Positions 13,211-37,642 of a stretch of 64,000 nt of DNA are shown in pieces. The DNA is from an uncultured Myxococcales bacterium (GTDB lineage: Bacteria > Myxococcota_A > UBA9042): contig CAIMLR010000036.1 in assembly GCA_903842345.1 (NCBI GenBank), positions 186,001-250,000 of the forward strand, in the 5' to 3' direction. Position 1 is the stretch's first letter. Every line of letters begins with the position of its first letter. A program made the translations under genes and the position numbers. A model generated the notes under the pieces. The model was given only the letters and a program-made list of their open reading frames with translations. It was not told the DNA's origin and made no database searches.

Positions 13211-13230
13211 CGGTGGCTATCGCACCTCCC
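13211..13230 (+). promoter_or_regulatory. Intergenic motif CGGTGGCTATCGCACCTCCC, copy 1
   Basis: It follows the stop at 13203 and ends 20 bases before the ATG at 13250. The flanks GGTAGC and GCTACC can pair around it, which also covers the GGAGG site. The core GGTGGCTATCG recurs at four other phage gene borders. Confidence 0.65.
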
Positions 13231-13249
13231 AAAGTAGGAGGCTACCACC

Positions 13250-13606
13250 ATGAGCCAAGTTCAAGAAGATTCAATAGTTCCTAAGCACGACTACAAGCCC
13301 ACATCGACGGTGACCCTAGCGTTCGGCTGCACGTTCCCCGACGATTTCGAAACCTGCAAATTCCCAGGCGGGTTCATCCCATTCGAGTTCACATTGGATG
13401 AATACGACGCCATGTCGGCCATTAAGATGCAGCACCGCATTCTTACCAAACAATTCGATGGCAGGGATCGGGAGCGCAATTTGCTAGCCGCAATTGACGC
13501 GCTCGTGGAGGAAGTGACCAAAAGTTACGACCCTGTAAATGCCGAACGTTTCACATCAGCAGCGCTTAATTTGACGCAAGCGTTGTCGATCCTGCGAGGG
13601 CGCTAA
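13250..13606 (+). CDS. Hypothetical phage protein
   Basis: The 118-residue product starts MSQVQEDSIVPKHDYKP with TAGGAGG just upstream. No family was recognised. It overlaps the next gene by one base (TAATG). Confidence 0.6.
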   Translation: MSQVQEDSIVPKHDYKPTSTVTLAFGCTFPDDFETCKFPGGFIPFEFTLDEYDAMSAIKMQHRILTKQFDGRDRERNLLAAIDALVEEVTKSYDPVNAERFTSAALNLTQALSILRGR

Positions 13607-13911
13607 TGGAACCCACTGAGCAGGAACAACCACTGACAGCAGCCGACATCAAGCCGTTGCTGGTCGCCATCGACAGACTGACGCACCTCGTTGGTTTGGC
13701 AGTGGTTGCCATCGATCGTCACGCACGAGTAACCGACCGGCACCTAAGCGCAAAGGCAGCAGAAGCGACGGACGGAATCGTGGTCGTACAGCGTCAAGCG
13801 GACGGTTCGCAGAAGGTCATCGTGCGGGACACGGCAAGCGCGACGAAGGCCGTAGCAGCCCAGGTCGAAGCAGCAATAGACCACGAGGATTCTGAATGGT
13901 CTACATATTGA
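13606..13911 (+). CDS. Hypothetical phage protein upstream of terminase
   Basis: The 101-residue product starts MEPTEQEQPLTAADIKPLLV. A helical first half with a possible coiled coil is followed by an acidic end. It is the last gene before the packaging genes. No family was recognised. Confidence 0.6.
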   Translation: MEPTEQEQPLTAADIKPLLVAIDRLTHLVGLAVVAIDRHARVTDRHLSAKAAEATDGIVVVQRQADGSQKVIVRDTASATKAVAAQVEAAIDHEDSEWSTY

Positions 13912-14018
13912 CCAGACCCAATCCTACCAACCGCGAATATCCCAATATGGACAATACTTTCCTTTACCCCGTAGCTCTTGCGGCCAACCCCGCATTCTTG
14001 AAGTTATCGATATTTCAG

Positions 14019-14062
14019 ATATTTGAATCCATATTCGACCATCCAGATATGGATTCAAATAT
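14019..14062. terminator. AT-rich perfect 16-bp stem before terminase genes
   Basis: ATATTTGAATCCATAT (14019-14034) pairs exactly with 14047-14062 over a 12-base loop. The surrounding 13912-14085 stretch is much richer in A and T than the genes beside it. It marks the border between early and late genes and could be a terminator, a late operator, or both. An AGGAG site for the next gene starts 11 bases past it. Confidence 0.6.
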
Positions 14063-14085
14063 TGAGAACCTATAGGAGATCCTGC

Positions 14086-14637
14086 ATGAGTGTAGGCCCA
14101 AAGAAAGGCGCGATCGACAAGCCCGCTCGTCAGGCACGACCGCGAACCTGCGACACGACCACGATGGGTCTTGCCGACGCCAAGGCGAGGAACGCCGCGA
14201 AGTCTGCCAGCACACCACCAGCGGACGAGAAGCCACGATCCAAATATCACCCGCTGAAGCCTCGTGCGACTCCCAAGCGATCCTTGATGAGCGCAATCCT
14301 ACGCGACCCACGACTGGACGCTGACGACCGTGCCGCGATTGAACAAGCGAACGCCGATGGGCTGACCGTCCAAGAAGCCGCCGCGTTCGCCGTCTATCAG
14401 GTTGCACTCGCTCAGAAGCTGTTCGCGAACAAGCAAATCGAAGGCAAGGACGTCATCGTCGCGATGAACAGGATCGGCAGTTCCGTAACGGCCTGCGCCC
14501 AGCTATCGACTGCCGGTGGACCATCCGCCGCTACGGTGACGATCAAGTTCGAGGGCAAAGGCCAAACCGCCGACCGTGAAGGTGCAGTCGTTTCCACGCC
14601 TGACCCAGACATCGGCGACGTCATTGTGACCGAGTAA
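14086..14637 (+). CDS. Putative terminase small subunit
   Basis: The 183-residue product starts MSVGPKKGAIDKPARQARPR after AGGAG. Its place directly before the large terminase (its stop abuts the next start) and a central helical part (RDPRLDADDRAAIEQANADG, LTVQEAAAFAVYQVALAQKL) suit a small terminase subunit that binds phage DNA and starts packaging. No diagnostic motif was recognised, so the call rests mainly on context. Confidence 0.55.
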   Translation: MSVGPKKGAIDKPARQARPRTCDTTTMGLADAKARNAAKSASTPPADEKPRSKYHPLKPRATPKRSLMSAILRDPRLDADDRAAIEQANADGLTVQEAAAFAVYQVALAQKLFANKQIEGKDVIVAMNRIGSSVTACAQLSTAGGPSAATVTIKFEGKGQTADREGAVVSTPDPDIGDVIVTE

Positions 14638-16035
14638 ATGCCACGCATCGTCCCCCTCCCTGCTCGGCCAAACCGGGAAACAACCGCAGTCAGTGTCGAC
14701 CTAGACCTGAATGCGGCGTGGGGACTGTATGACAAGCAAGCACGCTTCGTCTTTGGCTCGTCCCTGTTCGCCATCATGCTCGGCGGCGTGGGATCGGGGA
14801 AGTCCGTCGCGCTGGTGTGCAAGGCCATCGTGCTCGCCCTGCGGAACCCCGGTTCTACTGGCGCGCTACTTGGCAGAACCGGCGTCGACCTCTCGACCGT
14901 GCTACTCCCTTCCCTGTTCGACATGCTGGCCAAGGCCCAAGAGCAATGCGGCATCTCGCTGATCTCCGACTACGACAAGGGCAACGCCTGCCTGACGCTG
15001 ATCAACGGGTCGAAGATCTGGTTCCGTCCGTACAACCGCATCCAGAAGATCCGTGGCCTCACGCTGACCTGGGCCTGCGCCGACGAGGTGGAATTCTCAG
15101 AAGCCAACCCAGAGGAGATCTGGTCAGTCCTCACTGGTCGTCTTCGTGGCAAAGGTCCGTGCCCACAGTTGGCGTTTGCCACGTCACCCAACGGACTACG
15201 CGGGATCACGGCCAAGTTCGTGACCGCCCAGCGCCACTACCAAGTCGCTATCCAGAACAATGACCTACAGGCCCAGCGAACCTACCGGCAGTACAACGTC
15301 GTCACCGCCACGAGCTTCGACAACCCGTACCTGCCTGAGTATTTCTTCGATTCGCTGCGCTCAATGAGCAAACGACGCTACGAGCAGGAAGCACTAGGCA
15401 AGGTCCTGCAACCGCTCAACACCGTTCTCTCCCTTGAACCCCGCCACATGGTCGACCACGACTGGCGCACCAAGGAGAACCGCAATCTGGCGTGGATCTT
15501 GTGCGTGGACTGGGGCGGTCAGGACCACCACGTAGCCTTGATGATCCAGATCGACCGCAAGAACAAGCGTTACGTCGTCGCTGACGAACTGATTGGCGAC
15601 GGGATGCCTCGCGGCAAGTTCCAGCGCCTGTTGTCCGACTGGGTGACCAGCAAGGGAATCGACCCATGCGTGGCCGGTGTGGACCGTGCAGCACCCGGCG
15701 AGAACCAGATCCTGCAAAGCCGACTCAGAAACACGCCGATCCGGTTCATGGACAGCAAGATCCAGCAGAAGGTGTCAACCGGCGTCGAGTACATCCGCGA
15801 CCTGATGGACCCGCAGTCCGTCGAACCGCAGCTCGTGTTTGCCAAGTCCCTAGCTCAGGTAACTACCGGCGTCACCGCACCGATTTGCCCAGCGCTTCGG
15901 AACTACTGCTTCCACATGGACAGCGATGGCATTCCCCGCGACATCCCCAACAAGGACAACATCAACGACCACATGCCCGACGCGATGCGCTACGGCCTGA
16001 TGGCGGCGAAGGACTACGCATCCTCCCGTTTGTAG
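14638..16035 (+). CDS. terL: Terminase large subunit
   Basis: The 465-residue protein has the packaging ATPase signature: Walker A GGVGSGKS at about residues 49-56, Walker B WACADEVEF near 145, and a coupling-like segment AFATSPNG. The C-terminal nuclease half has CVDWGGQDH and NDHMPDAMRYGLMAA, giving the acidic residues expected of the RNase H-like fold. It pumps DNA into the prohead and cuts it. The ATG directly follows the small subunit's stop. Confidence 0.92.
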   Translation: MPRIVPLPARPNRETTAVSVDLDLNAAWGLYDKQARFVFGSSLFAIMLGGVGSGKSVALVCKAIVLALRNPGSTGALLGRTGVDLSTVLLPSLFDMLAKAQEQCGISLISDYDKGNACLTLINGSKIWFRPYNRIQKIRGLTLTWACADEVEFSEANPEEIWSVLTGRLRGKGPCPQLAFATSPNGLRGITAKFVTAQRHYQVAIQNNDLQAQRTYRQYNVVTATSFDNPYLPEYFFDSLRSMSKRRYEQEALGKVLQPLNTVLSLEPRHMVDHDWRTKENRNLAWILCVDWGGQDHHVALMIQIDRKNKRYVVADELIGDGMPRGKFQRLLSDWVTSKGIDPCVAGVDRAAPGENQILQSRLRNTPIRFMDSKIQQKVSTGVEYIRDLMDPQSVEPQLVFAKSLAQVTTGVTAPICPALRNYCFHMDSDGIPRDIPNKDNINDHMPDAMRYGLMAAKDYASSRL

Positions 16036-16037
16036 TC

Positions 16038-16049
16038 CGGTGGCTATCG
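16038..16049 (+). promoter_or_regulatory. Intergenic motif CGGTGGCTATCG, copy 2
   Basis: It lies 3 bases after the terL stop and 28 bases before the portal ATG; ACCTCCC follows as in copies 1 and 3. Confidence 0.65.
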
Positions 16050-16077
16050 ACCTCCCCTCACAGGGGGCACCTCACCG

Positions 16078-17586
16078 ATGACCGACGACAACAGCTTTGA
16101 CGACTACGAACGATCCTTAGAAAGCCTGTATGAGCAGGCCGACGCGTCCGCAGGGATGACGTTGGCCAGTACGCGCAACAGACGCCGAAACATGGTGCTT
16201 CTGCGAAAGAAGTCACTTGAATTCGCCCAGTTCTTGGACGGCGACTTCACGTCGATCCCGTATCACATGAAGCGAGCGTTTCCATCTGGTTACAAGAAGA
16301 TGCCGATCCGCATCATCAACCTGTTGCAGCAGTTCGTCTTTGACCTCGCCACCCTGTACGCCCGCGCACCGAACCGAATGTTCGTCGCTGCACAGAAGGA
16401 CGCCGGTGGCAATAACCGGCTTGACCCCGCTGTCTACCAGAAGTTCAACGACATCTACGACCGCTCAGGGTTTGACAGCGCGTGCTTCCAAGGAAGCCGC
16501 AAACTCGTGCCCCAGCAGACGCAGGTCTTCGTGGTGCTACCCTCAGGTCCGCGCAAACAGATTATCAAGTCGTTCTCACCATTTGAAGTCTTCGTGACGC
16601 CCGGTAACGCCCTGACCGCCAGTGACATCCAATCCGCCGCAGAGGTTCGCATCCGCGCTCCGGTGGCCGCTCAGGACGACAACGTTCTGTTGGGCTGGAT
16701 GGTCTTCACGCCGACCGAATGCTACTGGGATGCTGACGGCACCAAGAGAAGCATCTTCAACTTGACCAACCCGCAGGACATCAGCAATCCGTGGCCCGGT
16801 ACGATCCCCCTTGCTGCCGTCCACGCCGTCGAACCACCTCCCGGTTGCTTCATCGCTCCGTTGGCCGACGACCTGTACCACGAGCAGATCGGCATCTGTC
16901 TGGCCCTCTCACAAATCGAGTTCATGGCCCGACACAGCGCACCGGTCAAAGTGATCCAGCCCGGTCAAGACGGTGGTTTGGTATCCGAGCAAGCCGAAGG
17001 ACTCCCAATGGGCGCGGACGACTGGGTCGCTCTACCTGGTCCCGGCTCCACGCTCGCCGTCATCCAGCCCCAGCCGATGATTGGCGAATACCGCATGATG
17101 ATCGACTGGATGACCGGTCTTTTGGCGAACACGCACAACGTGGCACCCGATTCGTTCAGCAAGTCACCTGCCGCTAAGACTTCCGTATCACGCGCCTACG
17201 ACCGTGCCGACCGTGCGGAGACGAGGGACCGCTACAAACGCATTTTTGAGCCTCTGGAGACCCAGTTGGCACGTCTGGTGGCACGCGTATCGAATCTCTA
17301 CGGACCGGACGGCATCGTCCTGCCCGAAGACGTCATCGTGAACGTGACGTACCAAGAGCCAGACGACGCACCAGCCGATCCGGTTCACGCAATGCAAGCC
17401 GCTTTGATGACCTTCCGAACCGGCGTGGACAGCCCGGTAGACTACCTCGCTCGTCAGAATGGAATCAGCACGAAGGCTGCGGAAGACAAGATTCGCGCCA
17501 ACCTAACCTTGTGGAACGACCTGTCCAAGCTAATGCCGACCGACGCGATGAACATCGACGCACCGATCCCAAAGGCTGACCAGTGA
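16078..17586 (+). CDS. Phage portal protein
   Basis: The 502-residue protein follows the large terminase and has a portal-like course: an N-terminal helical region with RIINLLQQFVFDLATLYARA, a central beta part (FSPFEVFVTPGN, VLLGWMVFTPTECYW) and a long helical stem region near MIDWMTGLLANTHNVAPDSF and KRIFEPLETQLARLVARVSN. Portals form the dodecameric DNA channel at one capsid vertex. Size and order fit. The stop overlaps the next GTG by 4 bases. Confidence 0.8.
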   Translation: MTDDNSFDDYERSLESLYEQADASAGMTLASTRNRRRNMVLLRKKSLEFAQFLDGDFTSIPYHMKRAFPSGYKKMPIRIINLLQQFVFDLATLYARAPNRMFVAAQKDAGGNNRLDPAVYQKFNDIYDRSGFDSACFQGSRKLVPQQTQVFVVLPSGPRKQIIKSFSPFEVFVTPGNALTASDIQSAAEVRIRAPVAAQDDNVLLGWMVFTPTECYWDADGTKRSIFNLTNPQDISNPWPGTIPLAAVHAVEPPPGCFIAPLADDLYHEQIGICLALSQIEFMARHSAPVKVIQPGQDGGLVSEQAEGLPMGADDWVALPGPGSTLAVIQPQPMIGEYRMMIDWMTGLLANTHNVAPDSFSKSPAAKTSVSRAYDRADRAETRDRYKRIFEPLETQLARLVARVSNLYGPDGIVLPEDVIVNVTYQEPDDAPADPVHAMQAALMTFRTGVDSPVDYLARQNGISTKAAEDKIRANLTLWNDLSKLMPTDAMNIDAPIPKADQ

Positions 17587-18212: not shown

Positions 18213-18232
18213 CGGTGGCTATCGCACCTCCC
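18213..18232 (+). promoter_or_regulatory. Intergenic motif CGGTGGCTATCGCACCTCCC, copy 3
   Basis: The 20 bases are identical to copy 1 at 13211-13230. The copy starts right after the stop at 18212 and lies 46 bases before the next ATG. Confidence 0.7.
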
Positions 18233-18278
18233 TCGAAAGGGCTTGGTTCCAAACCACCACCAACCCCAATAGGAACCG

Positions 18279-18827
18279 ATGACCGACGTATTGGACCCCA
18301 CCCCAATTGAAACACCAGCAGCCCCAGCGGCTGTGGACGTGCTTGCCACGCTCGCCGCTGTTCAAGCTGAACTCGCTGCAATGCGTGCAGACGTGTCGGC
18401 AAAGGCTCAAGCCGAAGCCGTCATCAAGGCAGAAGCTGACGCGAAGGCGAAGGCAGACGCCGAAGACAAGATGACGGAATCCCAGCGCACGCAGGCCGAA
18501 GTGGAAACGCTCAAGGCTCGCATCGCCGCACAGGACGCCGCCGCACTTGAATCCGCTCGCACGTCGATGCTCGATTCTTTGGGAGTAGACCCAGCGTACC
18601 GCCGCGTCTTCCCAGAGGGTGACGCAAGGGAACCGAAGGTGAAGGCCGCAATCGAGAAGTTTGCCGCCGACCACCCGCGCCTGTTGACGCGCCCACCAGG
18701 CCCACCGCAGCCGACCGTTCCCGACCTTGCAAGCAAGTTCCACGGACGTCAGGTCAGCAAGCTCGTGAACACCGAGTCCGTAAAGGCCTCGATTGCCGCG
18801 ATGAACGAAACACTCGGTAACCACTAA
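18279..18827 (+). CDS. Putative capsid scaffold protein
   Basis: The 182-residue product has an Ala/Pro-rich start, then a long charged coiled-coil region (about residues 20-95, with AKAQAEAVIKAEADAKAKAD and SQRTQAEVETLKARIAAQDA). A helical end with basic residues follows. It sits two genes before the major capsid gene. These are usual features of phage scaffold proteins, which organise capsid subunits and are then released. No sequence family was confirmed. Confidence 0.7.
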   Translation: MTDVLDPTPIETPAAPAAVDVLATLAAVQAELAAMRADVSAKAQAEAVIKAEADAKAKADAEDKMTESQRTQAEVETLKARIAAQDAAALESARTSMLDSLGVDPAYRRVFPEGDAREPKVKAAIEKFAADHPRLLTRPPGPPQPTVPDLASKFHGRQVSKLVNTESVKASIAAMNETLGNH

Positions 18828-18852
18828 ACCACCAATTTCAGAGGATAACTAG

Positions 18853-19221: not shown

Positions 19222-19267
19222 ATCGGTCCTCCCTTTTGCCCCATAACTAGGGGCCAAGGAACTGACA

Positions 19268-20167
19268 ATGGCTAACGTATTCGCTCCTCTTTTGCCTACA
19301 GCAATCGAAGTATTCTATCAGCAACTCGCTTCCAAATCGGCTGCATTCGAGAAGATTGCTCGTATGCGTTCCGACCCGGTAGCCAGCCTCAAGTTGGCTG
19401 AACTCCGCACTGGTGGTTCTGCCGGTTTTGGCACTTGGGACGGCGGCGACGTCACCCCAGGCGACTTCACCGGTCTTGGTTCCACTGCCGTGTCCTCGCA
19501 GGCCTACAAGAAGCAGATGTTCATCAGCAAGTACGACGCCGAAGACAACCCAATGGTTGTTGCCGACATCGCATCAAGATTGGCCGATGAAGCTGCCTAC
19601 AAACTGGGCCGTTTGGTTTGGACCGCTCTGGGCAACGTCGCCTCGACCGACCACCCAACCGTGGCAGGCAAGAAGATCTGCGACGCGCACACGTTCGGCA
19701 CCAACAAGGGCACCTCGGCGCTCTCGTTGTCTTCGCTGAACGCTGCACGCGTCGCAATGCGTGGTTACAAGAACCACGACGGCGACATCGTCCCATTCGA
19801 AGGCTACAACCTGTTTGTGCCGCCTTCTTTGGAAACGATGGGCAAGCAGTTGATTCGTTCCGTCAGCTACCCGAACTCCCCAACCAATGGTGGTGAGTCG
19901 GACATCATCAACTCGTTCAACGGTTCCGACTCCGGCATCGTGGGAGTTGAGGTTGCCCCGCTGATGAGCGATTCCAACGATTGGGCATTGATCTGCGGCG
20001 CTTCTGACGCACGCAAGCCGTTTGATTTGTGGCTCCGTTCGCCAATCGAGTTGATCCCAACGATCGACCCGAAGACGCAGGGCCTCTACTTCAACGTCTC
20101 GTTCCGCGCCAGTGTGTTGGTAAAGCCTGACTGCGACACGTCCATCTTCTACAGCTCCGTGGCGTAA
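19268..20167 (+). CDS. Major capsid protein
   Basis: The 299-residue protein follows the scaffold-like gene and precedes the connector genes. It has a helix with ASKSAAFEKIARM, a central YKKQMFISKYDAEDNPM, a long segment around FEGYNLFVPPSLETMGKQL, and a C-terminal half with GVEVAPLMSDSNDWALICGA typical of HK97-fold or Mu-like coat proteins. A strong stem-loop right after the gene would help give a high level of this message. Fold assignment is by pattern and place. Confidence 0.8.
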   Translation: MANVFAPLLPTAIEVFYQQLASKSAAFEKIARMRSDPVASLKLAELRTGGSAGFGTWDGGDVTPGDFTGLGSTAVSSQAYKKQMFISKYDAEDNPMVVADIASRLADEAAYKLGRLVWTALGNVASTDHPTVAGKKICDAHTFGTNKGTSALSLSSLNAARVAMRGYKNHDGDIVPFEGYNLFVPPSLETMGKQLIRSVSYPNSPTNGGESDIINSFNGSDSGIVGVEVAPLMSDSNDWALICGASDARKPFDLWLRSPIELIPTIDPKTQGLYFNVSFRASVLVKPDCDTSIFYSSVA

Positions 20168-20180
20168 GGCCCAACAAGAC

Positions 20181-20292
20181 GCGGGGGACGGATCTGGTGG
20201 GGTCCGTCCCCCGCAGTGGGTTCCCGCTAGGGAACGCTAATCCTCCGCCAGTAGTCTGTCCCCCTGAAGGGATACGATGACGCTGGCGGAGG
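20181..20292 (+). terminator. Two strong hairpins after the capsid gene
   Basis: First stem: GCGGGGGACGGA (20181-20192) with its perfect complement at 20203-20214. Second stem: CCTCCGCCAG (20242-20251) with its complement at 20283-20292. No T-run follows either. Likely roles are partial termination or 3'-end protection, giving more capsid than tail protein. Confidence 0.6.
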
Positions 20293-20324
20293 CACCCACC
20301 ACCTAATTCTCAGTGGGGCAACAC

Positions 20325-22265
20325 GTGGCAAAGACACTACGATTCGATACTTCCACCGTAGTGACCCACGCCGATCCGCTCGGCATCGTCCCATCATCTG
20401 CTACCTGCAAGTTCGTCACGTCCGGTGGCAAGGACGCCGGTCTTACCGGCTCCGTTTCATTGCCCTCCGTTGACACGACAGTGGGTCTTCCTGCCCTTCC
20501 TGCCACGCTGAGCACCGGAACCGCCTTCAACTTCAACCAAGGTCAGGGAAGCCCACAGACGGCGCTCGCGCCAGAATCCGGACACGTCACGTTCGCCTTT
20601 GGTGCGGACTCGCTAACTTTGACCTCCCCGGCATCGACTCCGCACGACGGCGACCAGTTCAATCTGGCTCGTGACTCCGTGAACCACACGACCACGCAGG
20701 TCGGTACCGCACCATCCGCGACCCTGCTGGCCGGAATCTCTGCCTCCTACTCGGCGGACCCGGATTACGACGCTGTGGTCGATGGCAACACCGTGGTCCT
20801 CACTGGCAAGGCACCCGGCGCAATCATGACCACGCTGGTCGCTGCGACAACGTCTTCGAACTCGACCTTCACGGTTGACCGCACAGTGACCGGACAGGAC
20901 GCGACATCAGGCGTACCAGCGGTTGCCGACCAGTGGACTGTCCAGTTCGGAGGAAGCGGTGGCCCAGTAGATGGTGGCACGCTGACCATCACGATTGACG
21001 GCACCCCTTACACGGCGACCTACCACTCGCCCGATGATGGTTCGCTTCTTTTTGCAGACCTGATTGCGGCCATCGCTACCGACCCCAACTACACGGCCTC
21101 CGCCGACATGGGTTCCGGTGGTGGGCCGTCCATCATCGTGACCGCCAACGCGGCAGGTGTGCGCTCGTCCGTCGTCAGCGGCTCCACGAACTTCCCCGGC
21201 GTTACCTTCACGTCCACGCAGACCCGCCCTGGCGTCGATTTGCAGACCGGTTCCCCGGCCACTACGGACCAGTGGACAGCCACCCTCACGGTCACCGGAA
21301 ACGCCGCCCCCAGCTTCATCACGACCAATGATTACTTCGCTGGCGCGTGGATGAAGGCGGGCACCGAGTATCGCAAGATCGCCACCCAGACCTACACGTC
21401 GTACCCCGACACCTCGTGGTCCCTCGCCTTCGCGTTCGACATCGCAGCTTCCGCACCGTTCGCTTCTTGGCAGGTAGCACAACCATCCGACACGACCTCC
21501 GTCTCGCTCTACCAGAACGCGTCGGTAGTCCACGGCGTTTCGCCACCATCTGCCTCTACCAAGTCCGTCGTCCGCGTTGTTGCGCCGACCGGCGTTGCAG
21601 TCGGCGACCCATACTTGATTGTCTCGGATGGTGTGCCGGTCGTCGTCACGGCGACCCGCGTGGCTGGCCATTCGGTCACCATCAGCCCGTCGTTGGATTC
21701 CGTGCCATCAGACGGCAGCACCTTCCAAGCGCTCAAGATGACCGTGACCGTGGACGCGCCTACCAAGACGCTATTGGGCACGAGCCACAAGATGGTCTGG
21801 GAATACACGGATGGGACGACCAATCGTCAGCACGTCGAGTCCGTCAGCGTCGTCCGCTGGGTTCCAGACCCACCAATCACGCCAGAGGGTGTCAAATCCC
21901 TGTTGGCCGCGTACCAACCGTCCACCGCCAACGCGAGGGACCAGACGTACTACCAAGGCATTGCCGACCGCGTGACCGCGAAGATCGAGCAGGCCCTGAT
22001 GGGTGCTGGTCGTCGGCAATCCTGCTTCGGCGACCCCAACGCGTTCTCAGAACCCGGCAGGACCAGTGCCCGCCTCTTCTTGGCCGACGACGGCTTCTAT
22101 CCATCCGGTGCCCAGCCCGACGCCTACCTGCGTGAGTGCCAAATGCGCCTCCAGCAGGAAATGGTCGTGGCCATCGCAGGCCTTGGCTACGACACGGACG
22201 GCGACGGTGCACTGACTGGCGACGAGAAGCGACCGAAGTTCTTCTCATTCAAGGTGACGTTGTGA
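20325..22265 (+). CDS. Large beta-rich head-tail connector or decoration protein
   Basis: The 646-residue protein uses GTG at 20325 with GGGGC upstream (a GTG at 20313 is also in frame). The first two thirds are Thr/Ser/Gly-rich and contain copies of a unit like DQWTVQFGG, GTLTITIDGTPYTATY, LFADLIAAIATDPNYTASAD; related units start DQFNLARDS and DQWTATLTV. A matching unit occurs in the fibre-like gene at 32915. The last third (PEGVKSLLAAYQPSTANARD onward) is helical like an adaptor and includes DTDGDGALTGDEK, a calcium-loop-like segment. It looks like a connector with added surface domains. Confidence 0.55.
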   Translation: MAKTLRFDTSTVVTHADPLGIVPSSATCKFVTSGGKDAGLTGSVSLPSVDTTVGLPALPATLSTGTAFNFNQGQGSPQTALAPESGHVTFAFGADSLTLTSPASTPHDGDQFNLARDSVNHTTTQVGTAPSATLLAGISASYSADPDYDAVVDGNTVVLTGKAPGAIMTTLVAATTSSNSTFTVDRTVTGQDATSGVPAVADQWTVQFGGSGGPVDGGTLTITIDGTPYTATYHSPDDGSLLFADLIAAIATDPNYTASADMGSGGGPSIIVTANAAGVRSSVVSGSTNFPGVTFTSTQTRPGVDLQTGSPATTDQWTATLTVTGNAAPSFITTNDYFAGAWMKAGTEYRKIATQTYTSYPDTSWSLAFAFDIAASAPFASWQVAQPSDTTSVSLYQNASVVHGVSPPSASTKSVVRVVAPTGVAVGDPYLIVSDGVPVVVTATRVAGHSVTISPSLDSVPSDGSTFQALKMTVTVDAPTKTLLGTSHKMVWEYTDGTTNRQHVESVSVVRWVPDPPITPEGVKSLLAAYQPSTANARDQTYYQGIADRVTAKIEQALMGAGRRQSCFGDPNAFSEPGRTSARLFLADDGFYPSGAQPDAYLRECQMRLQQEMVVAIAGLGYDTDGDGALTGDEKRPKFFSFKVTL

Positions 22266-22672
22266 ACGCCGCCTCAATCCTCACAGCCATCCAAGATCGC
22301 ATCGAGGCCTTGGACCCATTCGATTGTGCGACGACCGGCGACCGATTCCGTGGGCACGTCGGCGGTGAACCCCCGCTGAACATGGACAGGACGTTCAGCG
22401 TCGGTTCGTCCCTGCCCGCTCGCGCTACCGACTTCCTCTCACCAACCGACTACGTGGTGACGGTGGCTATCGCGGTTGCTTACCAAGACGGCGATGCCGC
22501 ACTTGCCCGAATCCTCACGGATGCGGAACAGATAGCCGAAACCATTTACGAAATGGGTTCGGACCTGGGTGTGGTGATCGACCAAGTTCCTGAAGGACAA
22601 ATCCATCAGGGACCCGTAGCGAACACGTTGATTGCAGCCCGCATGTTTAGACTGCGGTATACCTTGGGGTGA
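22262..22672 (+). CDS. Putative head-tail joining or tail terminator protein
   Basis: The 136-residue product starts with GTG overlapping the previous stop: MNAASILTAIQDRIEALDPF. The alternation of an N-terminal helix, beta region and C-terminal RMFRLRYTLG strand, together with its place just before the tail tube gene, fits a tail terminator. No sequence family was confirmed. Its coding sequence contains one GGTGGCTATCGC (22460-22471), probably by codon chance. Confidence 0.6.
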   Translation: MNAASILTAIQDRIEALDPFDCATTGDRFRGHVGGEPPLNMDRTFSVGSSLPARATDFLSPTDYVVTVAIAVAYQDGDAALARILTDAEQIAETIYEMGSDLGVVIDQVPEGQIHQGPVANTLIAARMFRLRYTLG

Positions 22673-22676
22673 TAAG

Positions 22677-23936
22677 ATGGCACGTTGGTTGAAGCGGGAT
22701 TCTTCCCTTGGTTTTGCAGTTCAGTCCGATTACACGACCGTACAGACCAGCGGGTTCAACTACCTGTTGGCCGGTGACGACGTAAGCGTCGATGTCGCTC
22801 GTGACCTTCAGCAAACGCAGCTTCTGGAAGGATCCTGGGGCGCGAGCAGCGCCCCAGCGGTCGGATCCAAGCACGGCGGCAAGATCAAGTTCAAGATTCC
22901 GCTCCGCTCCTGCAAAGTCGCCTACGACCCGACATCCGATTTGATCAGCGCCAATCTGCCACCTGAGTTCAGCCTGTTGGCCATCGCCCTCGGCTCTGGC
23001 TCTGCCAACGCCCTGTTCAACCACCTGTATGGTGCTGGCGACGTGGACACCTTCTCGCCTACCGTCATTGGCACGAACACCGGCTCGTACACGACTGGCC
23101 AGTTCTTCTGCGCCGCTTCTGATACGGCAGGCACCAACCTCGTCACCGGATGGATCAAGAGCCAGTCTGGCGCGTCCCTCACGCTGTTCGAAGCGACCGC
23201 GACCCCAGCATCCGACCCAACCAACGTCTACCCGACGTCCACCGCGTGCTTGACGTCCACCCAGCCAAGCCCGCTGACCATCCACTACGTCGGATCGAAC
23301 GCGGCTCTCGGTTACGTCCTCGTTGGTTGTGTCTGCGAATCCGCTTCGCTGACGCTGGGCGCTCGCCAAGTGCCGGTGCTTGAACTCTCTTACAGCTTCA
23401 CCAGCCACACCCGCTCAGCCACGGTCGGTGGCCTACAGATCCCCGCTGGCTACGAACGCGTCCAGCCGTCAATCGGCGTCAAAGGCGCTCGCCTCACTTT
23501 GGGCGGCGTGGCTACCGATGGCGTCGGCGACCTCAAGCTGACCTACACCGCAACCCACAGCTACATCGACTCCCACAACGCGCTACAGGGCGTTGCTGAG
23601 TGCATCGTGACGAGCAAGACCGTCAAGATCTCCTGCACGGTGCCGATCGATTCGACCGATACGCTGACCAACGGTTCAAGCCCGTACGAAACGAAGCTGG
23701 AACAGGGCACGACCGTCAACGGCCTCTGCCTCACGACCGGCACCCAGCCTGGCAAGATCCTGTCGATCTTCTGCCCAGCGGTTCGCGTTTCTGCTCAGCC
23801 GAAACTGGTCGATAAGGGCGGGTTCCTCTGCGAACAGCTTGAATTCGAAGCCGCTGCCTACGCTGCAGATGGCACCAGCCCAACGACCGTTGACGCAGCT
23901 CCTGCCGATTCGGTGTTCCGCATCGCGCTAGCCTAA
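22677..23936 (+). CDS. Putative major tail tube protein
   Basis: The 419-residue product starts MARWLKRDSSLGFAVQSDYT. It is beta-rich, with Thr, Ser and Gly patterns and strands such as LGYVLVGCVCESASLTLG, QVPVLELSYSFTSHTR and GVGDLKLTYTATHSYI. It lies two genes before the tape measure, directly before the tail chaperone pair, the usual place for the tail tube subunit. No sheath gene accompanies it, which supports a non-contractile tail. Confidence 0.7.
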   Translation: MARWLKRDSSLGFAVQSDYTTVQTSGFNYLLAGDDVSVDVARDLQQTQLLEGSWGASSAPAVGSKHGGKIKFKIPLRSCKVAYDPTSDLISANLPPEFSLLAIALGSGSANALFNHLYGAGDVDTFSPTVIGTNTGSYTTGQFFCAASDTAGTNLVTGWIKSQSGASLTLFEATATPASDPTNVYPTSTACLTSTQPSPLTIHYVGSNAALGYVLVGCVCESASLTLGARQVPVLELSYSFTSHTRSATVGGLQIPAGYERVQPSIGVKGARLTLGGVATDGVGDLKLTYTATHSYIDSHNALQGVAECIVTSKTVKISCTVPIDSTDTLTNGSSPYETKLEQGTTVNGLCLTTGTQPGKILSIFCPAVRVSAQPKLVDKGGFLCEQLEFEAAAYAADGTSPTTVDAAPADSVFRIALA

Positions 23937-23966
23937 GTTCCCACCTCCACCAAGGAAACCCACCAA

Positions 23967-24323: not shown

Positions 24324-24397
24324 CTCTGGATGGCGGGCAACAGCCGACGTGGACAGAGCGTTGGCGTCTTCTAGCTGACCTTGCCGCAGACATCGCA

Positions 24398-24664
24398 ATG
24401 GTCCGCATGGCGCACTCGTGCGACCCCGACCAAGACTGCGACGGCCAAGGATTCGAGTTCGACGGGCACATCTGGAATGTCTGCCCGCACGACGCGCTAC
24501 AGGACCCATATTTTGCGACCGCACAACTGCTGGCCGACGCACAGGAAGTGCAACCACTATCTGATTGGCCGTCTGGTTGGCCTGCGGGCATCAGTTACTG
24601 CGTGCAGGTGATCCGCTCCGCACGCATCCGCAAGGCACGCAGGGACGCGGCTGACCAACAGTAA
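24398..24664 (+). CDS. Tail assembly chaperone extension, probably made by -1 frameshift
   Basis: From the ATG at 24398 the frame gives 88 residues with HSCDPDQDCDGQGFEFDGHI, but it is open back to 24287 with no ATG, GTG or TTG between, and the upstream residues (LTLDGGQQPTWTERWRLLAD) look coding. That fits a gpT-like extension reached by slipping -1 near 24302 from the gene at 23967. An independent start at 24398 has no good ribosome site. The D-x-D and Cys-rich part could bind a metal. A 20-bp hairpin follows. Confidence 0.65.
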   Translation: MVRMAHSCDPDQDCDGQGFEFDGHIWNVCPHDALQDPYFATAQLLADAQEVQPLSDWPSGWPAGISYCVQVIRSARIRKARRDAADQQ

Positions 24665-24674
24665 CCGAACCATC

Positions 24675-24726
24675 TTGTTCCCCCAACGGGTCTTCTTCTC
24701 TTCTTTAAGACCCGTTGGGGGAACAA
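24675..24726 (+). terminator. 20-bp perfect hairpin before tape measure gene
   Basis: The arms at 24675-24694 and 24707-24726 are exact complements over 20 bp, with a 12-base pyrimidine-rich loop. It starts 10 bases after the chaperone stop. This is the longest stem seen in the window; it may limit read-through into the tape measure gene or be an RNA processing site. Confidence 0.65.
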
Positions 24727-24746
24727 CGGATTCCAAACACCCAGTA

Positions 24747-24757
24747 GTGGCTATCGC
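24747..24757 (+). promoter_or_regulatory. Intergenic motif GTGGCTATCGC, copy 4
   Basis: It lies between the 20-bp hairpin and the tape measure ATG at 24781, 23 bases before the start. The first G of the fuller motif is A here (AGTGGCTATCGC), and the ACCTCCC extension is missing. Confidence 0.55.
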
Positions 24758-24780
24758 AGGCACTCGTTGGAGGCGTCTGT

Positions 24781-27189
24781 ATGGCTATCCCCGCCGCGAA
24801 AGTAGAAACCCGCATCGTATTGGAGACCGACGACCGTGCCAGCAAAGGCATTAAGGACGCCCACGGTGCTCTGCGTGACTTCGGCCACGAAGCCGAAGGC
24901 GTTGGCGGTCAGTTCCACGAAATGGGCGAGAAGGCGGCTGGCGCGCTCTCCAGCACATCCCGCCTCGCACGTCCGCTAGCTGGGTTTGCCGGTGAAGCTG
25001 GTGGCGAAGTCCGCGAACTCGGTCACGCCATGCACGGCTTCGCATTGGCGACTGAGCTTATCCCAGGTCCGCTCGGAATGGTTGCCGGTGGTGTCGTCGC
25101 ATTGGGTGTCGCCGCCGTGTTGACCAACCAGCACATGGAGAAGTTGGCGGCACAGAACCGCCTCCTGAACACCCCCCTTAGCCAGAACCTGCGTGGCGAA
25201 CTCGACCTCGACGCTGAGGGCGCACGGAAGGCAGCAGAAGCGATGGAGGGACTGCGCTCCCACACGGCTCTGAACAACACGATCCTGAAAGAAGTCATCG
25301 CCAACGCTAAATCTTTGGGGGAGGAACCGGCAAAGGCCGTCGAAGACCTCGCCAAGGCTTGGGCCGGTGGCGTTGTCGGTGTCCTTGCCTATCAGGCCGC
25401 ACACGGACGTATGGCCGGTCTGGACCGTGAGTCACTGGACGCGACCGCTGAGCGCCTCGGTCTTGACCGAGAAGCACTGGGTCTGGCTGACAAACAACTC
25501 ACGCTCGGCCAGCAACTAAACGACCAAACGCTTGCCGCTGCAAAGGCTCGCCACAGCGTGGACGTGGACATCGCGGCGGTCAACGACGCCCTGTACAAGT
25601 CGATCCACGGCTACACCGACGAAGCGAAACGTGCCGGTAAGGAGCAATACGCCGCCCTACTTGAACGCCTCGGCCCAGAATCCCAGCTAACTGAGGAAGC
25701 CGACCGCCAGGTCAAGTACACGCAGCAGACGCTGACGTTCAACAAGGAGCAGGCCGCAGAAGAGAAGGCGCGATCCGAAGACCAGAAGCTCGCCAACCTA
25801 CAGGCAGAACTGGCAGGCACCAAGGCCGAACAGCGCCAATTGAAGCTCGCGTCCATTGGTGAACAACAGGCAGAGGTAGCAAAGAAGCTCGCCACCTTGG
25901 AGGAACTGCGTGCCGTCATTGGCGGTGGCCTGACCGACGATCAGAAGCGTCAGCTCGAAATCCTGAAGGCCCAGTTGGAGGTCGAAACCAAGGCGATCCA
26001 CGAGGCCGATAACTCAGAGAAGAAGGCCGCGCACAAGAAGGCAGCGGAGGACGCGAAGAAGCGCCAAACCGAATCTGCGAAGGAACGCACCGACTACCAG
26101 AAGGCAATCGGAGAGGTCGAGTCGCAGCAGATGCTCGCCGCCGCAGGTAACGACGCGATGAAGCTCGCGAAGGTCCAAGAGCAGAACCTGATTGCCGCTG
26201 CTAACCGAGAGGAAACGGCGATTCACTTCTCGCTCGACAGCGCACGCGTCAAAGCGGCCAAGTTTGAGGCGATCGAAGGCAAGCTGGATCAGGACTTGGC
26301 GAACCTACACAGGGAGGCGACCGACCAAGAGCTAACCACCGCTCAGGAACGCGACGACGCATTGGCCCAGTTGGAAATGGCGCGGCTCGCTGAGAAGAAG
26401 AAGCACCTGCTCGCCGAAGACGACCTCAACGGTGCGCATGCCATCGACGTCCAGATTGCCGACCTCGACCTGCACCAGAAGCAAATCGAGGAAGAGCGAC
26501 GTTTTGCGACCGAGATGCTGAGCGCGAAATCCGACCAAGCGAAGGCCGAGATCCAGCAGGCCCACGAGCACAACCTTGAACTGCTGAAGCTGAACGGCGC
26601 GAACAAGAACGGATCGGACAAGAACGGCACGGAGAACGCCGCACGCGGATACGCGTCCCTTGAAGCAGCGGCGAACGCAGCCAACGCGGCAGGCACGAAG
26701 GGCGCGCAAGCGGTTGGCAATTTGGCCAAGCATTCTGCCCAGCTCAACAAAGACTGGGAGCAGACCAAGAAGGCCGGTGGTGGCATTGTCGATATGGCAC
26801 CCGGTATGGTCGAAGCTGCTGGTTCCATCGCCGCTGGCTTCGTGGACGGCGAGAAGTCCAAGGCCGGAATCATGGCGATCACTGAGTTTGCTGCTGGTTG
26901 GGCGTCCTACCCGAACCCAGTCGGCATGGCTTCCCACTTCACGGCAGCGGCGATCTACGGGTCCATTGCTGGTGGCATCATCGGTGGTGGTGGTTCATCG
27001 GCTCCCGGTGGTGGTGGCGGTTCCGGTGGTTCGTCGCCGTTCAGCCCATCAGGTGGGTCCGCTGGGCAAGGTGGTCATACCATCAACGTCATTTATGGCG
27101 TTCTCGGCACCAAGCAGCAGCAGGGCTTGGCCATACAGCAGGCAATCGCAGCAACCCGTGGCACTGGCTTCTCCGGCAAGGGGGTCTAA
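24781..27189 (+). CDS. Tail tape measure protein
   Basis: The 802-residue protein is the longest in the tail block except the tail tip protein. It has long charged helical and coiled-coil stretches (about residues 300-620), a hydrophobic region near residues 80-120 (ELIPGPLGMVAGGVVALGVA, AVLTNQHMEKLAAQ), and a Gly-rich C-terminal end after FTAAAIYGSIAGGIIGGGGS. These are standard for tape measures, which set tail length and line the tube. By length it would fit a tail of roughly 120 nm at 0.15 nm per residue, an estimate only. Confidence 0.88.
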   Translation: MAIPAAKVETRIVLETDDRASKGIKDAHGALRDFGHEAEGVGGQFHEMGEKAAGALSSTSRLARPLAGFAGEAGGEVRELGHAMHGFALATELIPGPLGMVAGGVVALGVAAVLTNQHMEKLAAQNRLLNTPLSQNLRGELDLDAEGARKAAEAMEGLRSHTALNNTILKEVIANAKSLGEEPAKAVEDLAKAWAGGVVGVLAYQAAHGRMAGLDRESLDATAERLGLDREALGLADKQLTLGQQLNDQTLAAAKARHSVDVDIAAVNDALYKSIHGYTDEAKRAGKEQYAALLERLGPESQLTEEADRQVKYTQQTLTFNKEQAAEEKARSEDQKLANLQAELAGTKAEQRQLKLASIGEQQAEVAKKLATLEELRAVIGGGLTDDQKRQLEILKAQLEVETKAIHEADNSEKKAAHKKAAEDAKKRQTESAKERTDYQKAIGEVESQQMLAAAGNDAMKLAKVQEQNLIAAANREETAIHFSLDSARVKAAKFEAIEGKLDQDLANLHREATDQELTTAQERDDALAQLEMARLAEKKKHLLAEDDLNGAHAIDVQIADLDLHQKQIEEERRFATEMLSAKSDQAKAEIQQAHEHNLELLKLNGANKNGSDKNGTENAARGYASLEAAANAANAAGTKGAQAVGNLAKHSAQLNKDWEQTKKAGGGIVDMAPGMVEAAGSIAAGFVDGEKSKAGIMAITEFAAGWASYPNPVGMASHFTAAAIYGSIAGGIIGGGGSSAPGGGGGSGGSSPFSPSGGSAGQGGHTINVIYGVLGTKQQQGLAIQQAIAATRGTGFSGKGV

Positions 27190-28619: not shown

Positions 28620-31231
28620 TCTGGGACTCCTTGAAATATGGATGGAATGTCAACTACTGGCTGACGATATCCGGTATCGACTGCGTGTTCAGCGAAGCGA
28701 GCGTTACCGGAACACCCCCCGATGGGTTCGCGTCGATGCTCAAGTCATTGGTGATCGACCACTCGGCGGAAGTGGGCCAGTCGGTAGACCGTGACACCGG
28801 AATGGGTCAAGGTCTTCCGCTGACCTTCTCATTGCTCAGCGCCCCTGCTTTGGCAGCGATCATGCAGACGCCGACGATGACGACCGTTTTGACGCAGAAT
28901 TGCGTCGCTGGCACGCCCTACACTGGAACCGGCACGCTCCACGTTCAGGACACGTCGGCGTTCCCGTCGTCGGGCACCCTGTACGTCGGCCTCGAAACGT
29001 TTACGTACACCGGCAAGACGTCCATCACCTTCACTGGTTGTTCGAACGCACTTCACGGCTCTCTGGCTTCGTCGCATTTTTACGGCACGGCAGGTGGCAC
29101 GGTCACGAACAGACCGCGTGTCTGGCGTGGTCGTGAAGTCCGCTTGTACGCAGCTCCTGTCTCGCCGGACGGCACGACAACGGGGTCCGCTCTCGCCGAT
29201 GAATCACAAGAAGTATGGCGCGGCTTCATTGACCAAGGCCCGTACAGGGACGGCTCCGACAGGTTCACGGTCGAAGCACTGTCAATGGACCGCGTGTTGG
29301 CCAACCCACTGCCGTGCGGTGCCACTGGCGTCGTGCAGAAGTACTCAAGCCGTCAGCCAGTCCACCAGGACCAGTACCTTCAGGTCGTGATCGAGGCCTA
29401 CAACTCCAGCAACGCGGCAATCTCTGGGTACCCGTTGCAGGTCATCATCACGCCGTTCGACAACATCCCGGACGGAACGCTGATGGAAATCGCAGACATC
29501 ATCGCGACCATTCAAGCCCGATGGGACGCCGCACTGGTAGACCTTGGCGCACCTGCCATCAAGCTGATGTTCAACACGCATGTTGGCGATTACACGTACA
29601 ACACTGGGTACTTCCTGTACCCATCCAACGCCGCGATCGACCATAGCGTCTTCACGGTCGTGGTCAATGGAAAGCTAAAGGTCGACCACCACGCTATGTG
29701 GTGGGGTCCGTCTGGCCTTGGTTTCGACGTGAACCCGAAGCCGATCATCCCGACGTGGAACGGAGGCGCAAACCCGCTCGGCGGTGGAGCGACATCCAAT
29801 GAGTACGGCCAGTGGGACCCTAGCGGAGACACAGGCGAATCGATGACGCTGGTGGTCGAGTTGGATTCACCTGCGGACGCGATTCCCCCCTATGGGTTGC
29901 TGACGGTCGGAGACGAAACAATCTCTGGCAAGGCTACAGTGGTCGGAAACCTCGCGTACTTCTATGACTTGCGCTACCTGTCGCCCAAACAGAACATAGC
30001 GTGGACGCCCAAGGATAACGCAATTGGCAAGACGGTTGAGTACACCTTCTCGGAGACCAGTGACTACGCATACGACCTGATGTGCCGGTCTTTGGAATCT
30101 TCCGGTGCTGGCACTCGGGGTGATTACGACTACTGGGGATACGGCGATGGCTACGCGATCGACCAGAGTGCAATCGACGTGGCCAGCTTCGTCAGCGGAC
30201 TCGCTTCTGCAATCGTTGGTCTGAACCTACGCGTCGGCGGGTCTGGCCTGTCGTTTCAGGACATGTTCAGCGGTCTTCTGGCGTTGGTGCAGCGCGGTGT
30301 CGTGGCCCGTCCCGACTCTTCTGGCCGCGTCCGATTGGGCATCGTGTCCACCGACGTCAATGGGTCTTGGTACAAGACGAAGATCACTGATGAGCACCTG
30401 TTGTCCTTCAACAGCGAACCGGTCGTATCCGTCCGAAAGCGCGACCCGGTGACCCAGATCAAGGTGTCCTTCACGACCGACGCTAAGGGTAAGGACAGCC
30501 CGACCGTTTACACCGTGCAGGAGACTTCTGGCGTACTCGAATCGGGTGGACAGACGCTTGACCTTGCGCTCGCCTTGAATGGCCCACAGCCTTCGGCTGA
30601 CTGGACAATCCAAGGTTGGTGCGCCACGATTTTGGCGCAGTCGCACGCCGTCCAGACGATCGAAGTGCGCGTCGTCCCGTGGTTGGACGTCAACGTCGGC
30701 GACATGTGCCGACTGGAAACGACGCACCCCACGTTGTGGAACTGGGCTACTGCATCCGAAGGATTCACAGGTCAGGCACGGTGCATCGGCACCCGCCGCG
30801 ATCTGATGGGTGGCGCGCTGACTCTGACGCTGGTTGTCCAAGGTGGCCCGGTCGTGTCGGGTTTGTCGCCCGCAGCACGGATCAACTGGTACGACAGTTC
30901 GTCCGCACCGACGCTCGTGGACATCGATCACAAGTTCTTGTCCTACATGCAGCAGTCGATCTCAGAGAACGCGGGGGCCGCAGTCCGACTGATGCACTAC
31001 CAGGTCGGAATGGGCAACGAGGCATACGGCGGCTACCTGATCGTGTCGGCTGCGAACTCAGTCACGGTTTCCGGCGTCGACTGGTGCCGCCTGACGATCG
31101 CCAGCAGTTCGATCGCTGGGGCCAGCTTATCCACCTCGTTGAACAGCACACTCACGTTGCCCGCAGGGGCGGTCGCCACTGGCTGGCAGAACATGTTCGC
31201 TCACGCAGGCGACGGAACCTTCTGGGGATAA
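28616..31231 (+). CDS. Large tail tip or hub protein
   Basis: The 871-residue protein has an N-terminal region like siphovirus hub proteins, where a shifted-domain pattern RPRVWRGREVRLYAAPV is followed by EVWRGFIDQGPYRDGSDRFT. The middle has GDYDYWGYGDGYAIDQSAID, and the final third has NVGDMCRLETTHPTLWNWAT. It is the largest gene after the tape measure and likely forms the tail tip that contacts the host. The receptor-binding part cannot be assigned. Confidence 0.7.
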   Translation: MIWDSLKYGWNVNYWLTISGIDCVFSEASVTGTPPDGFASMLKSLVIDHSAEVGQSVDRDTGMGQGLPLTFSLLSAPALAAIMQTPTMTTVLTQNCVAGTPYTGTGTLHVQDTSAFPSSGTLYVGLETFTYTGKTSITFTGCSNALHGSLASSHFYGTAGGTVTNRPRVWRGREVRLYAAPVSPDGTTTGSALADESQEVWRGFIDQGPYRDGSDRFTVEALSMDRVLANPLPCGATGVVQKYSSRQPVHQDQYLQVVIEAYNSSNAAISGYPLQVIITPFDNIPDGTLMEIADIIATIQARWDAALVDLGAPAIKLMFNTHVGDYTYNTGYFLYPSNAAIDHSVFTVVVNGKLKVDHHAMWWGPSGLGFDVNPKPIIPTWNGGANPLGGGATSNEYGQWDPSGDTGESMTLVVELDSPADAIPPYGLLTVGDETISGKATVVGNLAYFYDLRYLSPKQNIAWTPKDNAIGKTVEYTFSETSDYAYDLMCRSLESSGAGTRGDYDYWGYGDGYAIDQSAIDVASFVSGLASAIVGLNLRVGGSGLSFQDMFSGLLALVQRGVVARPDSSGRVRLGIVSTDVNGSWYKTKITDEHLLSFNSEPVVSVRKRDPVTQIKVSFTTDAKGKDSPTVYTVQETSGVLESGGQTLDLALALNGPQPSADWTIQGWCATILAQSHAVQTIEVRVVPWLDVNVGDMCRLETTHPTLWNWATASEGFTGQARCIGTRRDLMGGALTLTLVVQGGPVVSGLSPAARINWYDSSSAPTLVDIDHKFLSYMQQSISENAGAAVRLMHYQVGMGNEAYGGYLIVSAANSVTVSGVDWCRLTIASSSIAGASLSTSLNSTLTLPAGAVATGWQNMFAHAGDGTFWG

Positions 31232-31234
31232 CGA

Positions 31235-32287
31235 ATGGCAATCACGACACCAACCAAGCTCGTCGTTTCCAAGGCGGACGAGTTCAACTTCACGCAGATG
31301 GCCGCAGGCCCGTTGCAGGTATCCTTAGCGAACAGCAATCACCTGTACGGCCATTTTTGCCCGAACCTGCTGTCGTTCAGCCCGATGGGCGGTCTTCTTG
31401 CTGCATCGACCACCTACGTGGTCCCCGTCGTGCCGTCCGTCGATGGGTTGTCCTACGACTTCATCTACACGGTGCTCGCTGGTGCGACCGACCCGTTGAC
31501 TATTCAGGTCTACAAGAACACTGGGGCCAACCCGGCGTCTGGCTGGACGAGCATCTACGGACCAACTGCCACGGCCTCGATGACGGTCGGACACTGGTTC
31601 GTACACCGCCATTCGACCGTCATCGCGGCGAACGTCACGATGCTCAAGTTCGTCGTCGTCGCACGCGCTGGCTACGACATGTTGAGTCACGTCGCTGTCC
31701 AGCCCACTGCCACGGCGGTCGCACCTCCACTGCTCAAGGCATCTGGCTTCTTGCCATTCGATGACTCGCTGATCTCTAGCCCTCGTGCGCCGATCAACAC
31801 CGAGATGGTGAACCGTGCCAAGTCCAACGCGCTGAACGTCTTGCGCGACCGCAAGCAATGCATCGCGTCCTTCGTGCAACCTTACGTCGCCGCTCCGTTC
31901 ACGACAGGTGGCTACGCGGTAAGCACACCCAGCGGATACACAACCACACCTTGGTCCCTGATGGGCAAGGCGACTGGTTTCCTACCGGGGAAACAATACG
32001 GGAACATCACCGTGTACTGCCTGTCGTCCGTGACCGGTGGCGCAACGGCTGACCAAGTGGTCATGGATCTCACCTGCCAGCCGTTGAGCAGTACCGGCAT
32101 TGACTCGACCGGGCTATTGAAGACTGACCTGTCTGGAAACGTCGTCCCGTCGCTCACTTTGGTGGTTTGGGGAACAGGTGTGTCCAACCCAGAGGTTCCG
32201 ATCGAGATCCGCGTCCGTGCGACCGCTGGGCACACCACTTACATCCACAGTCTGATTGCTTTTTGGACACCAACGGGGGCCGTGTAA
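31235..32287 (+). CDS. Putative tail fibre-module protein
   Basis: The 350-residue product starts MAITTPTKLVVSKADEFNFT. It is Thr/Ser/Val-rich, beta-type, with no catalytic motif seen. It lies between the tail hub and other receptor-side genes and overlaps the next ATG by one base (TAATG). A fibre or receptor-binding role is inferred from place. Confidence 0.55.
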   Translation: MAITTPTKLVVSKADEFNFTQMAAGPLQVSLANSNHLYGHFCPNLLSFSPMGGLLAASTTYVVPVVPSVDGLSYDFIYTVLAGATDPLTIQVYKNTGANPASGWTSIYGPTATASMTVGHWFVHRHSTVIAANVTMLKFVVVARAGYDMLSHVAVQPTATAVAPPLLKASGFLPFDDSLISSPRAPINTEMVNRAKSNALNVLRDRKQCIASFVQPYVAAPFTTGGYAVSTPSGYTTTPWSLMGKATGFLPGKQYGNITVYCLSSVTGGATADQVVMDLTCQPLSSTGIDSTGLLKTDLSGNVVPSLTLVVWGTGVSNPEVPIEIRVRATAGHTTYIHSLIAFWTPTGAV

Positions 32288-32868
32288 TGGCAAGAACCTG
32301 CAAACAGCGTGACTGGAGCACCGAACACGTCGCGATATCTTTGTGCGGCACCGATGTCGCTCCACCTGCGTCCCTGTGGCTGCTCAAAGAAGCCGATCAG
32401 GTCCAGTTGGACGTCGGCATGGCCTACTGCCAGACCGCCCTGATGGTCGAGAACAACACAGCCGCGTCCGGTACAACCCGCCGATTTATGGCGGTCATCC
32501 CGCCCGGACGTAACCACGCCTACCTGACGTTCACGCGATGCGCCAGTGGTCCGCTCAACGCACAGGTGGACACAACGGCTGGTTGGGATGCGACTGGACT
32601 TGGTACCGGAACCATCACGGAGACTGTCAAACAGGGGACGACCACGTCTGGTGCTGAGACCTACCTGGGAATGGGCACGACGCTCGGCGATTCCCAGTCC
32701 TTGTCTACGTCCGATCATGTTGATGATGTCTCCGCTGGCCTCCAGTACCGCGCCTTGATCGTGCCAGAAGACCGCGTGGCCACGAACGCTTGGTTTCAGG
32801 TCAGTCACACCGCTGGCCATTGCCTCGTTGTCCACGGCGTCACGCAGGACTTAGAAACCCTGCCGTAG
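32287..32868 (+). CDS. Putative minor tail or fibre protein
   Basis: The 193-residue product starts MARTCKQRDWSTEHVAISLC. It is a beta-rich protein coupled to the gene before it by TAATG. No family was recognised. GGTGGCTATCGC follows its stop by 8 bases. Confidence 0.55.
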   Translation: MARTCKQRDWSTEHVAISLCGTDVAPPASLWLLKEADQVQLDVGMAYCQTALMVENNTAASGTTRRFMAVIPPGRNHAYLTFTRCASGPLNAQVDTTAGWDATGLGTGTITETVKQGTTTSGAETYLGMGTTLGDSQSLSTSDHVDDVSAGLQYRALIVPEDRVATNAWFQVSHTAGHCLVVHGVTQDLETLP

Positions 32869-32874
32869 TGGTCC

Positions 32875-32887
32875 CGGTGGCTATCGC
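32875..32887 (+). promoter_or_regulatory. Intergenic motif CGGTGGCTATCGC, copy 5
   Basis: It lies 6 bases after the stop at 32868 and 27 bases before the ATG at 32915. The ACCTCCC extension seen in copies 1-3 is replaced by GAACGCC. Confidence 0.6.
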
Positions 32888-37599: not shown

Positions 37600-37642
37600 G
37601 GCAGGGACGGTGGGGTCACCCCACCGTCCCTGCCGTGGTTTT
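37600..37642 (+). terminator. Rho-independent terminator
   Basis: A perfect 16-bp stem (37600-37615 with 37619-37634, 3-base loop) is followed by GTGGTTTTT. This is the best intrinsic terminator in the window, the only phage stem with a clear T-run. Confidence 0.8.

Follow-up and report, generated by a model that had tools for sequence, protein, structure and literature searches.

The late promoters of phage T4 consist of a single box, TATAAATA, which is read by gp55. The genes of the late activators RinA, ArpU and Ltf directly precede the late operon, and P2 Ogr and Mu C have their own sites; such activators work through one to four sigma-dependent promoters, each having a separate -10 element. 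Cluster K mycobacteriophages carry repeated, oriented and phage-specific Start-Associated Sequences (SAS; GGGATAGGAGCCC), which lie 3–7 nt from the start codon, within the initiation region. In the L5 group (Cluster A) of mycobacteriophages, stoperators have the 13-bp consensus GGTGGMTGTCAAG (PMC3029335).

The stretch of 64,000 nucleotides analyzed here (the window), located on contig C36 in a host genome of 5.85 Mb (G000), contains a prophage whose late operon carries an 11-base box, GGTGGYTATCG in its general form, which appears to be an asymmetric, phage-specific, single-box control site. Its layout fits a single-box phage late promoter: like the T4 promoters, it is a short box that lacks a -35 element and is present in several copies before late modules, but its sequence is unrelated and no gp55-like factor was found. 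With the late activators this locus shares a gene for a DNA-binding protein adjoining the terminase block and, probably, a coordinated late switch; in contrast to them, it has six self-contained boxes with no dyad, and a candidate protein whose C15 paralogue matches such activators weakly. The resemblance to both systems is one of logic only. The SAS are likewise repeated, oriented, phage-specific and tied to downstream starts, but they differ in sequence and position, whereas the present box is found upstream of the Shine-Dalgarno sequence, 23–56 nt from the start codon.

Repeated Box in the Late Operon

The genes and sites of the prophage are listed in Table 1. The motif GGTGGCTATCG occurs in five exact copies (sites 1–4 and 6), compared with 0.02 ± 0.14 expected from dinucleotide shuffles, none of 100 of which reached five. 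The copy at site 5, AGTGGCTATCG, has one mismatch to it. All six copies lie on the coding strand of a single prophage's late operon, and no others with 0–1 mismatch were found on either strand between 4 and 41 kb of the window. The repetition of the motif at five late-gene borders, described in the initial annotation with coordinates 1–2 bases off, is confirmed. So is the placement of the copies right after a stop codon or a stem, since a stop codon lies 1–8 nt before four of the five intergenic copies and the fifth, site 5, follows a perfect hairpin. The distances from the motif end to the start codon are 27, 28, 54, 24, and 28 nt for the intergenic copies in order. Copies 1 and 3, previously noted as identical over 20 bases, actually share 23 (TAGC, the motif and CACCTCCC).

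Table 1. Genes, box copies and the long inverted repeat of the window prophage, with counterparts (contig:position) in the related prophages on contigs C35 and C15.
Feature	Position in window	Strand	Basis or context	Counterparts
Candidate factor, multi-HTH DNA-binding protein, 276 aa	12038–12868	+	Two HTH_17-like domains, central HTH, C-terminal module	
Site 1, GGTGGCTATCG	13212–13222	+	Before gene 13250–13606 and terminase genes	C15:24898 (GGTGGTTATCG)
Terminase large subunit	14638–16035	+	PHROG 2, E = 3.9e-31	
Site 2	16039–16049	+	Before portal-position gene 16078–17586	C35:1948, C15:27511
Portal	16078–17586	+	Gene order, no family match; used as query for relatives	
Site 3	18214–18224	+	Before scaffold-position gene 18279–18827 and head genes	C35:4138, C15:29721
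Major capsid protein	19268–20167	+	Weak matches to head/protease families	
Site 4	22462–22472	+	Within gene 22262–22672, 204 nt before gene 22677–23936	C35:8381, C15:33915
Perfect inverted repeat, 20 bp, loop 12, no T-tract	24675–24726	+	Between gene 24398–24664 and tape measure gene	
Site 5, AGTGGCTATCG	24746–24756	+	Before tape measure gene 24781–27189	C35:10651, C15:36234
Tape measure protein	24781–27189	+	PHROG 24, E = 2.4e-5	
Site 6	32876–32886	+	Before fibre-position gene 32915–33964	C35:18847, C15:44618
Serine integrase	38174–40003	-	Resolvase and Recombinase domains, PHROG 95 integrase	

Three Related Prophages in One Genome

A search of the host genome for GTGGCTATCG revealed a second motif cluster on contig C35, and a capsid profile search revealed a third related prophage on contig C15. 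The C35 prophage shares about 64–73% DNA identity with the window across the aligned late genes. Its contig starts at the terminase genes, downstream of the place of site 1, so that five sites are visible, and all five orthologous places (sites 2–6) hold an exact copy of the motif; the rest of this prophage, with the sixth site, was sought in the host assembly and not found. In the C15 prophage, each of the six orthologous places is occupied by GGTGGTTATCG, and these six copies are the only ones in the whole host genome. The motif thus recurs in related phages at orthologous places rather than at random ones.

The conservation is limited to the box. The intergenic flanks, taken as 22 nt on each side, have an ungapped identity of 9–64%, mostly 20–50%, which is the background level, while the box is identical at 11/11 or 10/11 positions in all pairs except window versus C15 at site 5 (9/11). 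Every position bar the phage-specific sixth is retained in 16 of the 17 orthologous copies; the flanks show no such retention.

At position 6, all six C15 copies share one C-to-T change. Under simple models, the probability that the identical change arose six times by chance is about 3e-8, and a permutation test of the confinement of all T copies to one phage gives P = 8e-5; independent drift is very unlikely. The three prophages (C36, C35, and C15) are mosaics, in which the head genes of the window are nearer to C15 (capsid 78% vs. 69%) and its tail genes nearer to C35. Since the C-to-T change is uniform despite these mosaic relationships, it does not merely track gene ancestry, and since all three phages reside in the same host, a host factor alone would not explain a box sequence that is uniform within each phage. 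It is very likely, as far as sequence comparison can tell, that a phage-specific trans-acting factor reads the box, and that this reader should be phage-encoded is an inference, albeit close to forced. We hold with high confidence that the box is a real site and that such a reader exists. The phage-specific and functional character proposed for the motif in the initial annotation is thus strongly supported by the three prophages and the concerted change.

The copy within gene 22262–22672 had been set apart from the others; all three phages retain it, and it must be counted with the rest. The codons at this place are ACG GTG GCT ATC GCG in the window and C35 (peptide TVAIA) and ACG GTG GTT ATC GCG in C15 (TVVIA). 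The replacement of alanine by valine alongside the box change indicates that here the protein follows the box.

Position of the Box, Leaders and Hairpins

The 17 sites of the three prophages, 14 of them intergenic, are all on the late coding strand. The start codon is 23–29 nt downstream of the box in ten of the 14 intergenic sites and 46–56 nt downstream in the other four, three of which precede the scaffold gene. The distance from the upstream stop codon varies from 1 to 162 nt, the extreme being C15 site 2, which in a gap of 197 nt lies 162 nt past the stop and 24 nt before the start. Random placement of boxes in the same gaps never gave as many sites at 23–29 nt in 100,000 trials. A distance that is fixed to the start and variable to the stop assigns the box to the gene that follows it.

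A logo of the 17 sites from -60 to +70 displays the 11-base box, a preceding C in 14 sites and the Shine-Dalgarno sequence, with no second conserved box within 60 nt upstream. The space before the Shine-Dalgarno sequence is too small to accommodate both an activator site and a -10 element. Sigma-70 promoters have -35 and -10 hexamers with a spacer of 16–18 nt; a scan for promoters like these on the plus strand found none between 12000 and 31900.

Two boxes in long gaps, site 5 and C15 site 2, sit past strong hairpins. The gap with the inverted repeat upstream of site 5 has a folding energy of about -41 kcal/mol, and neither of the other two phages was found to have such a repeat there. Neither strong hairpin has a T-tract, and termination there is a conjecture.

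Candidate Reader Proteins

The best candidate for the protein reading the box is the putative multi-HTH DNA-binding protein (Table 1), whose homologues in C15 are encoded at 24375–24881, adjoining site 1, and at 46261–47010, after the late operon. In both the window and C15, the candidate gene is located just upstream of the late operon. For the C15 paralogue, weak similarity was detected to late transcriptional activators (E = 3.4e-5) and to sigma region 4, while the matches of the window protein are general HTH matches; its structure model is poor (pLDDT 60) and too weak for a fold search. No homologue was found in C35, where the contig breaks off upstream of the terminase. An alternative reader could be the conserved HTH protein 5646–5993 (minus strand; C15:48793–49080), although it looks more like an excisionase.

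Relatives in Other Genomes

Searches of the phage database by DNA and by the portal protein gave no match, and by the terminase only distant ones. No relative was detected in IMG/VR by the capsid, portal and HTH proteins, or in GTDB genome contigs by the capsid and portal. When IMG/VR was searched for the motif followed by a start codon, three of at least 205 stretches with a copy had a second one among the matches listed, and none of these had a comparable arrangement. Across the family of the host, a cluster of copies was found only in this host's own genome; distant relatives identified by the capsid and portal in two other genomes of the family (G004 and G011) are prophages without the motif set. 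In G004, which belongs to the same genus, GGTGGCTGCCG is located 11 nt past a stop codon before the fibre-gene orthologue, that is, in the place of site 6 (C24, reverse-complement position 29824); it is possibly a diverged box or a chance occurrence.

Other Elements of the Prophages

An RNA hairpin is located just past the major capsid gene in all three phages (window 20181–20214, L009:6156–6191, C15:31713–31746). Its stem of 12–13 bp varies in sequence, with both bases replaced in 8 of 13 pairs and 100% pairing retained, while all three phages have exactly the same 10-nt loop, TCTGGTGGGG. The hexamer CCCACC, complementary to the loop, occurs 55–95 nt downstream behind further stems (partner strand at window 20295–20301, L009:6248, and C15:31789), which suggests a conserved pseudoknot. 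Rfam gave no match on 6000–40500. Other perfect inverted repeats of 12–16 bp in the prophage region are at 14019–14062, 11151–11194, 37600–37634 (a 16-bp stem with a 3-nt loop) and 7609–7642.

An accessory block at 4446–6333 on the minus strand codes for an MqsA-antitoxin-like HTH/zinc protein, an HTH_17 excisionase-like protein, a DUF6908 protein and a pentapeptide-repeat-like protein. Homologues of the last three are encoded in C15 on the plus strand behind the late operon. The product of the early-side gene 8453–9349 (298 aa) has no match in Pfam or PHROGs.

Discussion

The best supported mechanism, ahead of repressor sites and RNA-level roles, is that the boxes are single-box late promoters read by a phage-encoded factor, for which the multi-HTH protein is the candidate; we assign this reading a probability of roughly 0.55. 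Each copy would act as DNA, forming the core of a late promoter, and the transcript would begin in or just past the box, so that a leader of roughly 20 nt would precede the start codon. Transcription of the late genes would then be divided among at least six modules, each with its own start (terminase block; portal; scaffold and capsid; major tail; tape measure and tail; fibre and lysis), which the phage factor would turn on together. A self-contained promoter core is the best reading of a box that is tied to the downstream start, has no room for a -10 element and is found past hairpins. Among the three roles offered by the initial annotation, promoter, antiterminator site and RNA processing site, it is the promoter that agrees best with the link to the downstream start and with the two copies past strong hairpins. 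Against it stand the 204 nt between site 4 and the next start, the 46–56 nt at four other sites, the dissimilarity of the box to any known promoter and the lack of the motif set in the distant relatives from G004 and G011.

It is rather unlikely that the box acts in RNA, whether as a site for antitermination or pausing, as an ops-like element, or as a leader site where a bound protein would control translation, in combination with the small hairpin often found behind it. Hairpins do begin a few nucleotides past the box at most sites, often with the Shine-Dalgarno sequence in the 3' arm, but the advantage of their energies over shuffles is modest and is absent at site 4 of the window and C35 and at sites 1 and 6 of C15. 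The consensus elemental pause is G-10 Y-1 G+1, with which the G at position 1 and the YG at positions 10–11 of the box agree. However, site 4 is far from the next start, and site 5 and C15 site 2 are past strong hairpins, whereas an antitermination site would have to precede them. The absence of the complement of GGTGGTTATCG across the host genome speaks against a fully pairing RNA partner. Processing of the late transcript into modules, which would suit coding-strand boxes at module borders, is very improbable and was rejected: cutting at the conserved site 4 would destroy the gene around it, and a host nuclease would not account for a uniform C-to-T change in one phage. The likelihood of chance or a coding by-product, for which only the shortness of the motif speaks, is negligible given the number of copies expected and the retention of the box without its flanks; the three-prophage comparison refutes it.

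Silencing of the stoperator kind, in which a phage repressor bound to asymmetric boxes blocks elongation into the late genes of the prophage, as in the L5 group, is unlikely, marginally more so than a role in RNA. The likeness is considerable: in both cases the sites are short, asymmetric, oriented with transcription and located at gene junctions, the consensus agrees with GGTGGCTATCG at 9 of 11 positions, and the concerted change resembles the uniform difference between related, heteroimmune phages. On the other hand, L5 has at least 24 sites genome-wide, including operators, while here there are six, in late genes only, and the last bases differ. With 0–1 mismatch, only late sites were found in the window prophage and C15, none near early genes or an operator region, and the one extra match, with one mismatch, falls within a late gene of C35. 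For a road-block repressor, a fixed distance to the start codon, mostly 23–29 nt, would be unnecessary, and early genes should be hit too. The window and C35 prophages carry the same box in one genome, which homoimmunity should hinder. The stretches of the window, C35 and C15 contain no L5 consensus, and GGTGGMTGTC only as isolated single matches. A profile search with the candidate among solved structures listed no phage immunity repressor, and neither PDB nor PHROGs gave it a match to the L5 Gp71 family; the left end of C35 is missing.

If the boxes are indeed single-box late promoters, they may, as a doubtful extension, represent a new type: a short, self-contained box with a dedicated phage initiation factor that has no sequence relationship to known sigma factors or late activators, where one base would switch the specificity of six sites in concert, so that co-resident prophages would be either insulated from each other or cross-activated, depending on that base.

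The three prophages in one host amount to a natural experiment, in which the places and the box are shared and one phage differs by a single base in each of its six copies, including the copy where this alters an amino acid. C versus T at position 6 provides a testable specificity pair for finding the factor. Should the window and C35 prophages share the specificity of the factor, inducing one could activate late genes in the other, though not in C15. The arrangement shows how late-gene control is organized in a group of phages for which phage databases list no close relatives.
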